Source: Antrihabitans auranticaus (GTDB lineage Bacteria > Actinomycetota > Actinomycetes > Mycobacteriales > Mycobacteriaceae). From it: DNA of 64,000 nucleotides. Made by a program: the position numbers and the translations under genes. Below the pieces are notes generated by a model. That model was not told the DNA's origin. It made no database searches and was given only the letters and a program-made list of their open reading frames with translations. The DNA lies in assembly GCF_016481275.1 (NCBI RefSeq), contig NZ_JAEMNW010000001.1:868001-932000 (forward strand). Direction: 5' to 3'. Shown in pieces: positions 52,501-56,390 of this stretch (its first letter is position 1; each line of letters opens with the position of its first letter).

Positions 52501-52550
52501 CGCTTTCAGCGTAGTGTAGCGATCGATCCAGGAAAGACGCCTAGTTCGAT

Positions 52551-52578
52551 CTGCCGACAGCAGTTCTGCTGACGGCAG
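52551..52578. promoter_or_regulatory. 28-bp inverted repeat upstream of the ClpP-like pair
   Basis: The arms CTGCCGACAGCAG and CTGCTGACGGCAG face each other around TT. All bases pair except one A/A position per arm and the centre. It lies 42 bp before the first clpP-like start. The outer TCTGCCG...CGGCAG half-sites resemble, as I recall, the PopR box of Streptomyces clpP3P4. It could be an operator or a hairpin in the leader RNA. Confidence 0.65.
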
Positions 52579-52619
52579 CACGAGCAGCGAAGCCACCGTT
52601 CGTGCGTCATCGTCGAAAC

Positions 52620-53234
52620 ATGACCACTCCCGAACGGCCTCCCCAACTCGACGCCAAACTTCGCACCCGACTGTTCGATCAACGCGTCCTCGTACTCGAC
52701 GGCGCGCTGGACGACGACAACGGCACGGTCCTCGCGACGCAAATGCTGTCGCTGGCGGCGGACACACCTGACCGTGACATCGCGCTGTGGATTCATTCCC
52801 CGGGCGGTTCGGTACCGGCGATGCTCGCCATCAGGGACGTCATGCGGCTCGTTCCATGCGATGTCACGACGCTCGCCCTCGGACTCGCTTGCAGCGCAGG
52901 ACAATTCCTACTCTCGGCGGGTACACCGGGCAGACGCTACGCTCTGCCGCACGCGCGCATCCTCATGCATCAGGGGTCGGCCGGTATCGGCGGTTCCGCC
53001 GTCGAAGTCGAAGTGCAGGCAGACGATTTGCGCCACACGCGCGACACCGTGCTGGGGCTCATCGCCGAGGACACCGGACGCGACCGCGAAACGATCTTCA
53101 ACGACTCGCTGCACGACCGCTGGTTCACAGCGCAGCAGGCACTCGACTACGGGTTCATCGACCACATCGTGTCCGATCTCGGCCAGGTGCTGCCGATTCG
53201 CATGCATCGCTTCGGACTTGCCGGGGTCCGGTGA
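52620..53234 (+). CDS. ClpP-like serine protease subunit, triad intact
   Basis: A 204-residue subunit of the ClpP peptidase barrel, used with a Clp ATPase to degrade proteins. Catalytic residues by alignment with E. coli ClpP are Ser92 (LACSAGQF), His117 (ILMHQG) and Asp166 (SLHDRWF). The oxyanion segment is HSPGGS (59-64). The sequence is distant from the housekeeping ClpP1/ClpP2, so this is an accessory pair like Streptomyces ClpP3/ClpP4. ATG 52620 is chosen. The stop overlaps the start of the second subunit (GTGATG). Confidence 0.92.
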   Translation: MTTPERPPQLDAKLRTRLFDQRVLVLDGALDDDNGTVLATQMLSLAADTPDRDIALWIHSPGGSVPAMLAIRDVMRLVPCDVTTLALGLACSAGQFLLSAGTPGRRYALPHARILMHQGSAGIGGSAVEVEVQADDLRHTRDTVLGLIAEDTGRDRETIFNDSLHDRWFTAQQALDYGFIDHIVSDLGQVLPIRMHRFGLAGVR

Positions 53235-53824
53235 TGAGCACCTACACCATTCCCAACGTGATCACGCGCAATGCGGGCGGCGAGCGGATCATGGACGTCT
53301 ACTCGCATCTGCTTGCCGAACGCATCGTCTACCTCGGCACTCCCATCGACACGGGCGTCGCGAATGCGCTCATCGCACAGTTGCTGCACCTCGAAGCGGA
53401 CAACGCCGACGCGCAGATCGATCTGTATGTGAACTGCGAGGGTGGCGATCTGTCCGCGATGCTGGCGGTCTACGACACGATGCAATTCATCAAGGCGCCG
53501 GTCGCGACTACGTGCGTTGGGCAGGCAGTCGCCGCCGGGGCGGTGTTGCTCGCGGCCGGCACAGCGGGCCGGCGCTCGGTGTTGCCGCATGCCAGGGTCG
53601 TGCTGCACCAGCCCGCAGCGCAGGGGCGCGGCACAATCCCAGACCTCATCCTGCAGGCCGACGAGGTAGTGCGCGTGCGCGGCGATCTGGAAGAGATTCT
53701 GGCAAGGCACACCGGTCAGGCCGTCGAGACGCTTCGCCGTGACACCGACCGCGACCGCGTGTTCACTGCCCGGGCCGCCATCGACTATGGGCTGGCAGAC
53801 CAGGTACTCGACGAGCGCGGCTAG
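53234..53824 (+). CDS. ClpP-like subunit lacking the catalytic serine
   Basis: A 196-residue ClpP-fold subunit, closer to typical ClpP in most of its length (DVYSHLLAERIVYLGTPID; DTMQFIKAPVATTCVGQA). The nucleophile position, GQAASMGA in E. coli, reads GQAVAAGA here: Ser is Ala100 (codon GCC). His125 (VLHQP) and Asp174 (DTDRDRV) remain. The oxyanion loop reads NCEGG instead of NSPGG. It is thus likely proteolytically inert and works only in a mixed barrel with the upstream subunit, as ClpR does in cyanobacteria and plastids. It is translationally coupled to the active subunit. Confidence 0.92.
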   Translation: MSTYTIPNVITRNAGGERIMDVYSHLLAERIVYLGTPIDTGVANALIAQLLHLEADNADAQIDLYVNCEGGDLSAMLAVYDTMQFIKAPVATTCVGQAVAAGAVLLAAGTAGRRSVLPHARVVLHQPAAQGRGTIPDLILQADEVVRVRGDLEEILARHTGQAVETLRRDTDRDRVFTARAAIDYGLADQVLDERG

Positions 53825-53827
53825 CGA

Positions 53828-54169
53828 TCAGGCGGCCTGCAGCAGTAGCACCGGCCCTGCTGCTGCAGGCCGGGCCCGATGCAGATCCGACGCGATCCGC
53901 CCGAGTACACCGGCGAGGTCCGTACCGAGCGCGCCCGCAACCGCCTCGATCATCTCGCTCGACGGTTCCTTGCGTCCCCGTTCGATTTCCGAAAGGTACT
54001 GGGGCGAGATTCCGGCACGATCAGCAATGTCGACGAGGCGCTCACCCTGCTCCGCGCGCGTGGTCCGCAAGCTGCGGCCCAACGCTTCACGCCACAGCGG
54101 CTGTACCTCGGCGACGGGCTTGTTCTCCCCGGCCTTCTTCTCCCTGTGCAGCGGAATGATCTCGGCCAT
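53828..54169 (-). CDS. ClgR/PopR-like XRE family regulator
   Basis: A 113-residue helix-turn-helix protein. The core LVDIADRAGISPQYLSEIER followed by GRKEPSSEM (about residues 45-73) closely matches ClgR of mycobacteria and Corynebacterium, the activator of clp genes, and PopR, which controls clpP3P4 in Streptomyces. The protein ends in QAA, an Ala-Ala tail like those that make ClgR and PopR Clp substrates. It converges on the ClpP-like pair, three bases separating the stops. Feedback control by its own proteolysis is the expected logic, by analogy. Confidence 0.87.
   Translation of the reverse strand: MAEIIPLHREKKAGENKPVAEVQPLWREALGRSLRTTRAEQGERLVDIADRAGISPQYLSEIERGRKEPSSEMIEAVAGALGTDLAGVLGRIASDLHRARPAAAGPVLLLQAA
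53834..53871. terminator. 12-bp-stem hairpin between convergent ClpP-like and regulator genes
   Basis: GGCCTGCAGCAG (53834-53845) and CTGCTGCAGGCC (53860-53871) form a perfect stem with a 14-base loop. It lies just after the second clpP-like stop and inside the last codons of the regulator. No T tract follows, so Rho-independent termination is uncertain; it may slow both converging transcripts. The regulator's C-terminal Ala-Ala tail falls in one arm. Confidence 0.5.
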
Positions 54170-54792: not shown

Positions 54793-55419
54793 ATGACCGG
54801 CAGAGTGCGCGACGTGATGATCGGTTCGGCGGATCCCGAAGAGCTGAGCCGGTTCTGGTCCTCCTTGCTCGAACTTCCGAGTGAAGGCCGCCGCGACCAG
54901 GCGGTGAAAGTTGCCCTCCGCGGCGACGTGGGGTTGCTCTTCTCGCCGACTCCATCGCGAAAGCAGGGAAAGAACCGCATCCACGTCGATCTGGCGTCCA
55001 CGACCACGGACCACCAAAAGACGATCGTCGAGCGGGCCCTACGCCTTGGCGCGGTTGCGGTCGACATCGGCCAAGGGTCGGTACCGTGGGTTGTGCTGGC
55101 CGACCCGGAGGGCAACGAGTTCTGCGTACTGGAGCCTCGCGACGAGTACTCCGACACCGGTCCGATCGCGGCCGTTGTCATCGACTCGCTGAATCCACCT
55201 GCGCTGGCGCAGTTCTGGTCGCGCGCACTTGGCCTACCGGTGGAACGCGAGCGCGCCGACTTTGCGTCGCTTCGGCAGAAGCCCGGATTCTGGGTGGAGT
55301 TTGTTCGAGTTGCCGAGATCAACACCGCGGGATCTCGAGTGCGCCTGGGTGTTGTCCAACCAGCGGGCGGTGTCGCACTCACCGACCCGGAAGGAAACGA
55401 GTTCTTTGTCGTGACCTGA
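54793..55419 (+). CDS. VOC family protein (glyoxalase-like, two modules)
   Basis: A 208-residue protein with two glyoxalase-like halves. Each begins with a short beta strand and helix (DVMIGSADPEELSRFWSSLL; AAVVIDSLNPPALAQFWSRA) and ends with DPEGNEFC/DPEGNEFF, the last beta strand carrying a conserved Glu. It belongs to the Glyoxalase_6-like proteins often found as resistance or unknown-function genes in actinomycetes. It stands alone, back to back with the YdeI-like gene. Confidence 0.82.
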   Translation: MTGRVRDVMIGSADPEELSRFWSSLLELPSEGRRDQAVKVALRGDVGLLFSPTPSRKQGKNRIHVDLASTTTDHQKTIVERALRLGAVAVDIGQGSVPWVVLADPEGNEFCVLEPRDEYSDTGPIAAVVIDSLNPPALAQFWSRALGLPVERERADFASLRQKPGFWVEFVRVAEINTAGSRVRLGVVQPAGGVALTDPEGNEFFVVT

Positions 55420-55481: not shown

Positions 55482-56390
55482 TCAATCCTGCATCTGTGTG
55501 CGCAGGGTCGCGAGTGTCCGAGCGAGGATGCGCGACACGTGCATCTGTGAGATGCCGAGTCGCTCCGCGATCTGAGTCTGGGTGCAGTTGTCGAAGAATC
55601 GCAACAGCACTATGGTCCGGTCCCGTTCCGATAGACCCATGAGCAGTGGCCGAAGCGATTCATGATCTTCGACCGCCTCGAGCGCACGGTCGTAGTCGCC
55701 CAACACGTCGACAAGCGGCAACTGGTCGTTTCCCGCGCCGGCCGGTACATCCAGCGACATGGCCTTGTAACCCTGCCCAGCCTGCAGGCCCTCCGAGATT
55801 TCGGCAGGATCGCGATCGAGATGCCGGGCGAGCTCACTGATCGTCGGTGCACGTCCGAGTGCCTGAGACAAATCGCGGGTCGCCTGTGCGAGTTCGGAGT
55901 GCAGTTCTTTCATTCGCCGCGGCACCTTCAAGGCCCATGCGGCGTCACGAAAGTACCGTCGCACTTCGCCGGTGATCGTCGGGATGGCGAACGCCAGAAA
56001 CGCGCTGCCGCAGTGGGGATCGAACCGGTCTACGGCGTTCACCAGCCCGATCCGCGCTACCTGCATCAAGTCGTCTGCGGCTTCGCCGCGCCCGCTGAAC
56101 CGCTGCGCAATATGAGCGGCCAACGGCAAGCAACGCGTGATGATCTGGTCACGCACCAGCGCGCGCCGCGGATCGGCCCTGTCCAACTCGGCCAGTTCGG
56201 CGAACCGCTCGACCACATCGTTGTACTCATCGGACCGGCGCCCACCGCGCGCGGGCGCTTTCACTGGGTAATTGCTCCGAGCCGCTTTCCCGGGTGCCTC
56301 CGCCACGGTTACCGATCGAGGCGAATCGTCCTGCACATCCACGACGCTCATAGGAGAGCGCGGGCGTTCTGCCATCACAACGGCCGTCAA
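55482..56390 (-). CDS. SigB/SigF-type alternative sigma factor
   Basis: A 302-residue sigma-70 protein of the stress/sporulation SigB-SigF-WhiG branch. Region 2 is LPLAAHIAQRFSGRGEAADD followed by LMQVARIGLVNAVDRFDP; region 3 has GRAPTISELARHLDRDPAEI; region 4 ends TQTQIAERLGISQMHVSRI. The first 60 residues are a variable lead. The start is TTG at 56390, supported by AGGAGG five bases upstream. A promoter of its own class lies 33 bp upstream (56423-56447), implying autoregulation. It likely directs the CsbD-DUF4235 operon and works with the RsbW-like protein at 57701. Confidence 0.92.
   Translation of the reverse strand: MTAVVMAERPRSPMSVVDVQDDSPRSVTVAEAPGKAARSNYPVKAPARGGRRSDEYNDVVERFAELAELDRADPRRALVRDQIITRCLPLAAHIAQRFSGRGEAADDLMQVARIGLVNAVDRFDPHCGSAFLAFAIPTITGEVRRYFRDAAWALKVPRRMKELHSELAQATRDLSQALGRAPTISELARHLDRDPAEISEGLQAGQGYKAMSLDVPAGAGNDQLPLVDVLGDYDRALEAVEDHESLRPLLMGLSERDRTIVLLRFFDNCTQTQIAERLGISQMHVSRILARTLATLRTQMQD

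Follow-up and report, generated by a model that had tools for sequence, protein, structure and literature searches.

Recurrent loss of catalytic residues in ClpP4, a candidate docking ring of the actinobacterial ClpP3P4 backup protease

The closest described counterparts of the locus studied here come from Streptomyces, whose ClpP3 and ClpP4 subunits were reportedly described together with PopR by Viala, Rapoport and Mazodier in 2000 and by Viala and Mazodier in 2002. A second point of reference is ClpR of plastids and cyanobacteria, a ClpP paralogue that lacks a working triad and assembles with active ClpP. According to the portions of the published accounts covered here, PopR of S. lividans is an activator of clpP3clpP4 and a substrate degraded by ClpP1P2, so that failure of the housekeeping protease leads to production of ClpP3P4 (PMC9765437, PMC12607617); the published PopR operator of this species is TCTGCC-3N-GGCGAATCTGCC-3N-GGCAGA (PMC9775585). 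For the core enzyme, these accounts give a division of labour: Streptomyces ATPases bind through ClpP2, pocket mutations matter only in ClpP2 and ClpP1 does the cutting, such that a ClpP2 S131A variant sustains full ClpP1P2 proteolysis whereas replacing the ClpP1 serine by alanine impairs it (PMC9765437). Mycobacterial ATPases bind the ClpP2 face only (PMC4416901), and core ClpP1 does not dock ATPases in the species studied (PMC9765437, PMC4416901).

We analysed a clpP pair of Antrihabitans auranticaus that lies within a stretch of 64,000 nucleotides (the window; contig NZ_JAEMNW010000001.1). Like the Streptomyces ClpP3/ClpP4–PopR system, the locus combines a two-gene operon, a ClgR-paralogous regulator and a tandem operator of the TCTGCC-N3-GGCAGA type (Table 1). 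The two clpP genes stand in tandem on one strand and overlap by a single base (TGATG at 53232–53236), and are therefore probably translationally coupled. The window genome contains four ClpP genes, the other two forming a separate core pair with intact triads.

Table 1. Features of the clpP3–clpP4 locus (positions are those of the window)
Feature	Position	Strand	Basis
Tandem PopR-type operator, TCTGCC-N3-AGCAGT-TCTGCT-N3-GGCAGC (TCTGCCGACAGCAGT-TCTGCTGACGGCAGC)	52550..52579	+	Motif match, about 40 bp before the clpP3 start
clpP3-like gene; intact Ser92/His117/Asp166; docking-pocket positions A/W/L	52620..53234	+	Translation, alignment
clpP4-like gene; 196-aa ClpP subunit, triad altered	53234..53824	+	ORF translation, PF00574 profile, alignments
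Codons 69–73, EGGDL, at the oxyanion-hole glycines	53438..53452	+	Sequence comparison
Codon 100, GCC (Ala), nucleophile position	53531..53533	+	Codon read, alignment to E. coli Ser97
PopR/ClgR-like helix-turn-helix regulator, downstream of and convergent with clpP4; C-terminus LLLQAA; start codon uncertain	53828..54169	-	ClgR model, translation
Glyoxalase-like gene beside the clpP pair	54793-55419	+	
SigF-type sigma factor gene beside the clpP pair	55482-56390	-	

The second subunit has an intact ORF and a full-length fold (PF00574 (ClpP) over residues 15–194, 217.4 bits), but the Ser-His-Asp triad of an active S14 peptidase is incomplete, with Ala100 standing beside His125 and Asp174. Alignment with E. 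coli ClpP (NC_000913) places A, H and D at mature Ser97, His122 and Asp171, and a gap-free alignment with the solved ClpPs 6hwm, 7dft and 7dfu has serine opposite the alanine. A sequence-only reading of the window had reported the replaced nucleophile (within GQAVAAGA, residues 96–103), the retention of His125 and Asp174 (codons CAC and GAC) and an upstream partner with all three catalytic residues, and each of these points is confirmed by the translations, codons and alignments. Around the oxyanion-hole glycines, the subunit carries Glu-Gly-Gly-Asp in place of the Pro-Gly-Gly-Ser usual in active ClpP4s, a motif that is frequent in the clade with Ala or Gly at the nucleophile site. The same reading had held that orthologues with Ser at this site would speak for a sequencing error or private mutation. 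Such orthologues do exist, including those of two of the four analysed genomes from the window's own genus (L007, L008), but they reflect repeated losses and two apparent regains rather than error; chance or sequencing error is excluded because other genera, too, have orthologues with Ala or Gly here. The sigma factor and glyoxalase-like genes were considered as a conserved neighbourhood and rejected: a Streptomyces fungicidicus locus has genes of the same kinds, but relatives of the window copies were present at 0 of 19 named loci, some of which may duplicate species present among the other genomes.

Triad loss proved to be widespread. Among 394 genomes drawn evenly from the class, one of them the window genome, 112 gave a match at an E value of 1e-62 or better; since this cut-off reflects similarity to the window protein, more distant ClpP4s may have been missed. 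Five of the matches (L233, L234, L235, L237 and L238) were removed as core-like, with intact triads; they are basal in the tree and have no PopR-like gene, and L233, L234 and L238 also matched a core ClpP2 query. At least one triad residue is altered in 72 of the remaining 107 ClpP4s (72 of 112 with the five restored); the other 35 retain all three, which indicates that triad loss is not required. Of the 72 altered proteins, 65 have a substitution at Ser or His and seven at Asp alone. Written in the order Ser-His-Asp, the altered states are AHD (22), SGD (15), GHD (7), EHN (6), EHH (5), SHN (4), WHT (3), GHE (2), SHS (2) and one each of WHD, SDD, FHN, AQD, SHH and SGE. Across the rows of the large tree described below, Ser is replaced by A, G, W, F or E, His by G, S, D, Q or N, and Asp by N, H, S, T, E or A.

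The loss is one-sided. A ClpP3 partner was found at 106 of the 107 loci, on the same strand and with an intact triad in every case (106/106). As a control, 79 genomes were searched for the core pair, among them G107, a family genome outside the listed ClpP4 matches; 73 matched at 1e-75 and 70 were read (G408, G526 and G576 were left out). The core ClpP2 triad is kept in 69 of the 70, against 35 of 107 for ClpP4, with a single Ser → Trp exception (L339, genome G667), and that of ClpP1 is also intact in 69, the remaining sequence having one undetermined residue. A family-level set of 88 loci, hand-picked from 181 matching genomes, has no overlap with the class loci and was used in the large tree and in the motif and codon counts; its ClpP4 triad is altered at 60 of the 88 loci. 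Two partners in this set, on short contig pieces, were not found, and two others (L264 and L293) do not read as full triads, being frameshifted in the assembly, with pieces that still hold Ser, His and Asp. The sequence-only reading had regarded an active/inactive pair as unusual for an actinobacterial accessory clpP locus; the pairing itself, from overlapping genes, is well supported and conserved far beyond the window genome, and its supposed rarity is contradicted by the class-wide counts.

Three observations were made alongside these surveys. Four ClpPs were found in genome G667, where both ClpP2-type subunits are altered (core ClpP2, Ser → Trp, L339:1962-2612; ClpP4, Asp → Ser, L236) and the ClpP1 and ClpP3 triads are intact. 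Erwinia phyllosphaerae encodes, near an ordinary ClpP gene, a distant ClpP-like ORF (L078:7015-7599, minus strand; 27% identical) with Asp → Asn in the triad and an INSQGG loop. Contigs titled as Bifidobacterium breve metagenome-assembled genomes (MAGs; L056 and L068) have ClpPs resembling those of Ilumatobacteraceae and other uncultured actinobacterial MAGs (LGQAASAAAV type), and their titles may be misassigned.

The regulatory parts of the locus recur as well. The window regulator is closest to ClgR, at 69.6 bits and thus under that model's cut-off of 170. An opposite-strand PopR-like gene is present at 99 of the 107 class-draw loci and ends in Ala-Ala at 95, as counted with the window protein as query at a permissive E value of 1e-5, which may have let in some other helix-turn-helix proteins. 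The window operator resembles the S. lividans motif, its half-sites matching at 20 of 24 positions. When half-sites were scored after the published motif, a tandem operator reached a score of at least 18 at 79 of 106 class-draw loci, compared with a maximum of 16 in one single-base shuffle of each upstream region. This scoring is fairer than our first pattern, whose zero expectation was not independent because the pattern had been written after seeing the window. Given this recurrence of both a ClgR-like regulator with an Ala-Ala end and the tandem operator, the window locus looks like clpP3–clpP4–popR, the actinobacterial ClpP3P4 backup core.

A direct link to Streptomyces was provided by the 927-kb plasmid p1 of S. 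fungicidicus (NZ_CP023408.1), which carries a clpP3–clpP4–popR-like locus. Its operator has every base that the published S. lividans motif specifies, and its PopR-like protein is convergent and ends in LAA, matching the orientation and Ala-Ala end of the window regulator. The plasmid ClpP4 (L368:3001-3603) has lost a different residue from the window protein—Gly replaces the catalytic His, whereas the window ClpP4 has Ala for Ser—and its partner is intact. A protein of one group in our tree (f21) is 87.8% identical to this plasmid ClpP4 and shares its His → Gly change, and the group is therefore very probably Streptomyces; we infer that the ClpP4 of S. lividans is the same.

To place these changes, we built a tree of 223 rows (214 ClpP4s from the class, family and named sets and nine core-type sequences) with the triad columns removed. 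Parsimony, which disregards branch lengths, gave at least six losses and two regains, or 20 losses when regain was forbidden; the exact number is uncertain because many inner branches are weakly supported. The group that contains the window protein comprises 116 rows, in most of which Ala, Gly, Trp or Phe replaces Ser. Two of its members (L125 and L039) have Ser and a full triad, and five others (L256, L251, L258, L262 and L284) have Ser together with Thr for Asp. Both regained serines, in L125 and L039, are encoded by TCG, a single-base neighbour of the Ala codon GCG, although for L039 the tree infers Gly ahead of Ser. Given the full triads of these two proteins, serine appears to be tolerated, and perhaps sometimes useful, in the Ala/Gly clade. 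A second loss, His → Gly, accounts for the 16 rows of f21; a third, in which loss of Asp was followed by Ser → Glu, covers 17 rows (16 from family f22 and one from f19). Three further losses are confined to single rows: His → Ser (L036), His → Asp (L174) and Asp → Ser (L236).

We consider it likely that, in a conditional ClpP3P4 backup protease, ClpP4 forms a catalytically dead ring that docks the ATPase and sits on a ClpP3 ring that cuts. Made together from their overlapping genes, the two subunits would assemble as a hetero-tetradecamer, with ClpP3 in one ring and ClpP4 in the other. ClpP4 would offer its N-loop and hydrophobic pocket to a Clp-ATPase and pass the unfolded chain onward, and the seven ClpP3 sites would cut all peptide bonds. 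As a docking ring does not need a nucleophile of its own, the ClpP4 triad would have decayed repeatedly and at various residues, with selection maintaining the fold and the docking face; in the window lineage, Ser → Ala is combined with Pro → Glu beside the oxyanion hole. PopR in the window organism would build up only upon failure of the housekeeping ClpP1P2, and would then turn the pair on through the tandem operator. By analogy, a dead ClpP4 on an active ClpP3 would be the natural counterpart of the Streptomyces ClpP2 Ser → Ala mutant. Listeria ClpP1 resembles the window protein in having an atypical triad (Asp → Asn) in one of two ClpP paralogues; as described in the part of the source covered, that triad is active when complexed with ClpP2 (PMC9765437), behaviour not expected of a subunit with Ala for Ser. 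The seven ClpP4s altered at Asp alone may, by this precedent, not be dead.

Relaxed constraint seems the likelier reason for the decay, given the diversity of the replacing residues and the two apparent regains. Recurrence of the losses and the presence of Pro → Glu in most rows of the window's large clade nevertheless leave room for an adaptive reading, in which silencing one ring would itself be useful, for example by giving longer peptides, slower turnover or less exposure to the active-site-directed or pocket-directed inhibitors that hit ClpP1P2. In line with this, ClpP3P4 is described, in the text covered, as expressed upon ClpP1P2 failure and insensitive to ADEP (PMC12607617), and β-lactones are stated in a review, also covered in part, to kill S. 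coelicolor that lacks clpP3/clpP4 (PMC9775585). ClpP3, however, keeps its reactive Ser and would remain inhibitable, and varied replacements with regains are better explained by relaxation; we regard adaptive silencing as rather unlikely. Also somewhat unlikely is the general proposition that ClpP2/ClpP4-type subunits, including Streptomyces ClpP4, have repeatedly become pseudo-protease docking rings convergent with ClpR, with the split between cutting and docking selected rather than merely tolerated.

The candidate docking face is strongly conserved. The N-loop Pro, the pocket Tyr62 (E. coli mature numbering; Tyr76 in the full-length protein) and both oxyanion-loop Gly residues are present in all 107 ClpP4s; at pocket position 82, 93 carry Phe or Tyr and the other 14 His. 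ClpP3 has the N-loop Pro in 20 of 106, the window ClpP3 having Pro in that column; its position 62 is aromatic in 86 of 106 (45 Tyr, 39 Trp and 2 Phe) and its position 82 is Phe in 20 and Leu in 74. The window pair reads D, Y, F in ClpP4 and A, W, L in ClpP3. The core pair shows the N-loop Pro in 70/70 ClpP2s versus 0/70 ClpP1s, a combination of a ClpP1-like subunit without this residue and a ClpP2-like subunit with it to which we liken the ClpP3–ClpP4 pair. Pocket residues alone are no marker of a docking ring, because they are retained by many ClpP3s and by the non-docking core ClpP1 (Tyr62 in 63 of 70, an aromatic at position 82 in 68 of 70); the case for docking through ClpP4 thus comes from the N-loop pattern and from the homology with ClpP2. 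The sequence-only reading had offered pore access, ATPase docking and substrate choice as roles for an inert subunit, and it is ATPase docking that is favoured by the invariant N-loop Pro and by the docking function described for ClpP2 in the portions of the literature covered (PMC9765437, PMC4416901).

The same pattern bears on an arrangement of the ClpR type, in which inactive ClpP4 and ClpP3 would share one heptamer and so tune the number of active sites per ring. Although the overlapping genes suggest matched synthesis, and the chloroplast Clp is described, in the text covered, as mixing inactive isoforms inside its rings (PMC8182300), ClpP1P2 of Streptomyces and mycobacteria, the nearest studied relatives, docks its ATPase at one face of a two-ring particle according to the corresponding passages (PMC9765437, PMC4416901). 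The N-loop Pro and the intact triad, moreover, mostly segregate between the subunits, as fits separate rings, and mixed rings therefore seem improbable.

Still less probable is hydrolysis by ClpP4 through another route, such as Glu69 of the EGGD motif acting with His125 and Asp174. Glu occupies the Pro66 position in 90 rows, 84 of which have no Ser, and the window ClpP4 has the required His and Asp. Six Glu rows have Ser, however, and the rows with Trp, Phe or Glu for Ser have Pro at this position; the association is largely that of one clade and thus close to a single event. No ClpP is known to use such a route.

Measures of selection point in the same direction as the conserved docking face. 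In 12 hand-picked, partly overlapping pairs, dN/dS of the altered ClpP4s was 0.03–0.20, and that of the partner genes was 0.03–0.28 and above the ClpP4 value in nine of the 12, values that place the altered ClpP4s under purifying selection and mark the gene, at the level of its codons, as functional. A decaying gene or a sequencing or assembly artefact is hardly conceivable: one relative, Ancrocorticia populi, has an apparently broken clpP3–clpP4 locus (L059, excluded from the large tree and the codon counts), but dN/dS lies far under 1, the ORF is full-length and altered triads are common to many genomes.

The comparison of the pair with ClpP/ClpR drawn from the window sequence holds in kind, as both ClpR and the window ClpP4 are ClpP homologues without complete catalytic residues, although their origins appear to be separate. 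In contrast to ClpR, the window protein falls within the clade of actinobacterial ClpP4s and probably forms a ring apart from the active one, and the lost residues vary by lineage. Altered ClpP4s of the window type nest among active actinobacterial ClpP4s in our trees, which were built from rows other than ClpR, suggesting that triad loss in ClpP4 arose separately.

Within the freely available main-text passages of the literature covered, we found no statement of a triad-less ClpP4, and these passages nowhere describe the ClpP3P4 core as half dead (PMC12607617, PMC9765437, PMC8182300, PMC9775585, PMC4416901); Streptomyces ClpP4 is treated there as part of a proteolytic core. If our reading is correct, the backup core formed by ClpP3P4 would be a half-dead machine, also in the model genus Streptomyces, and the altered ClpP4s would be natural replicates of the laboratory ClpP2 Ser → Ala experiment. 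Because natural ClpP4s with and without a triad can be compared, the question of why two-subunit Clp proteases have two kinds of ring would become testable. In that case ClpP4 may often be misannotated as a proteolytic subunit, a concern for the profiling of ClpP inhibitors in actinobacteria.
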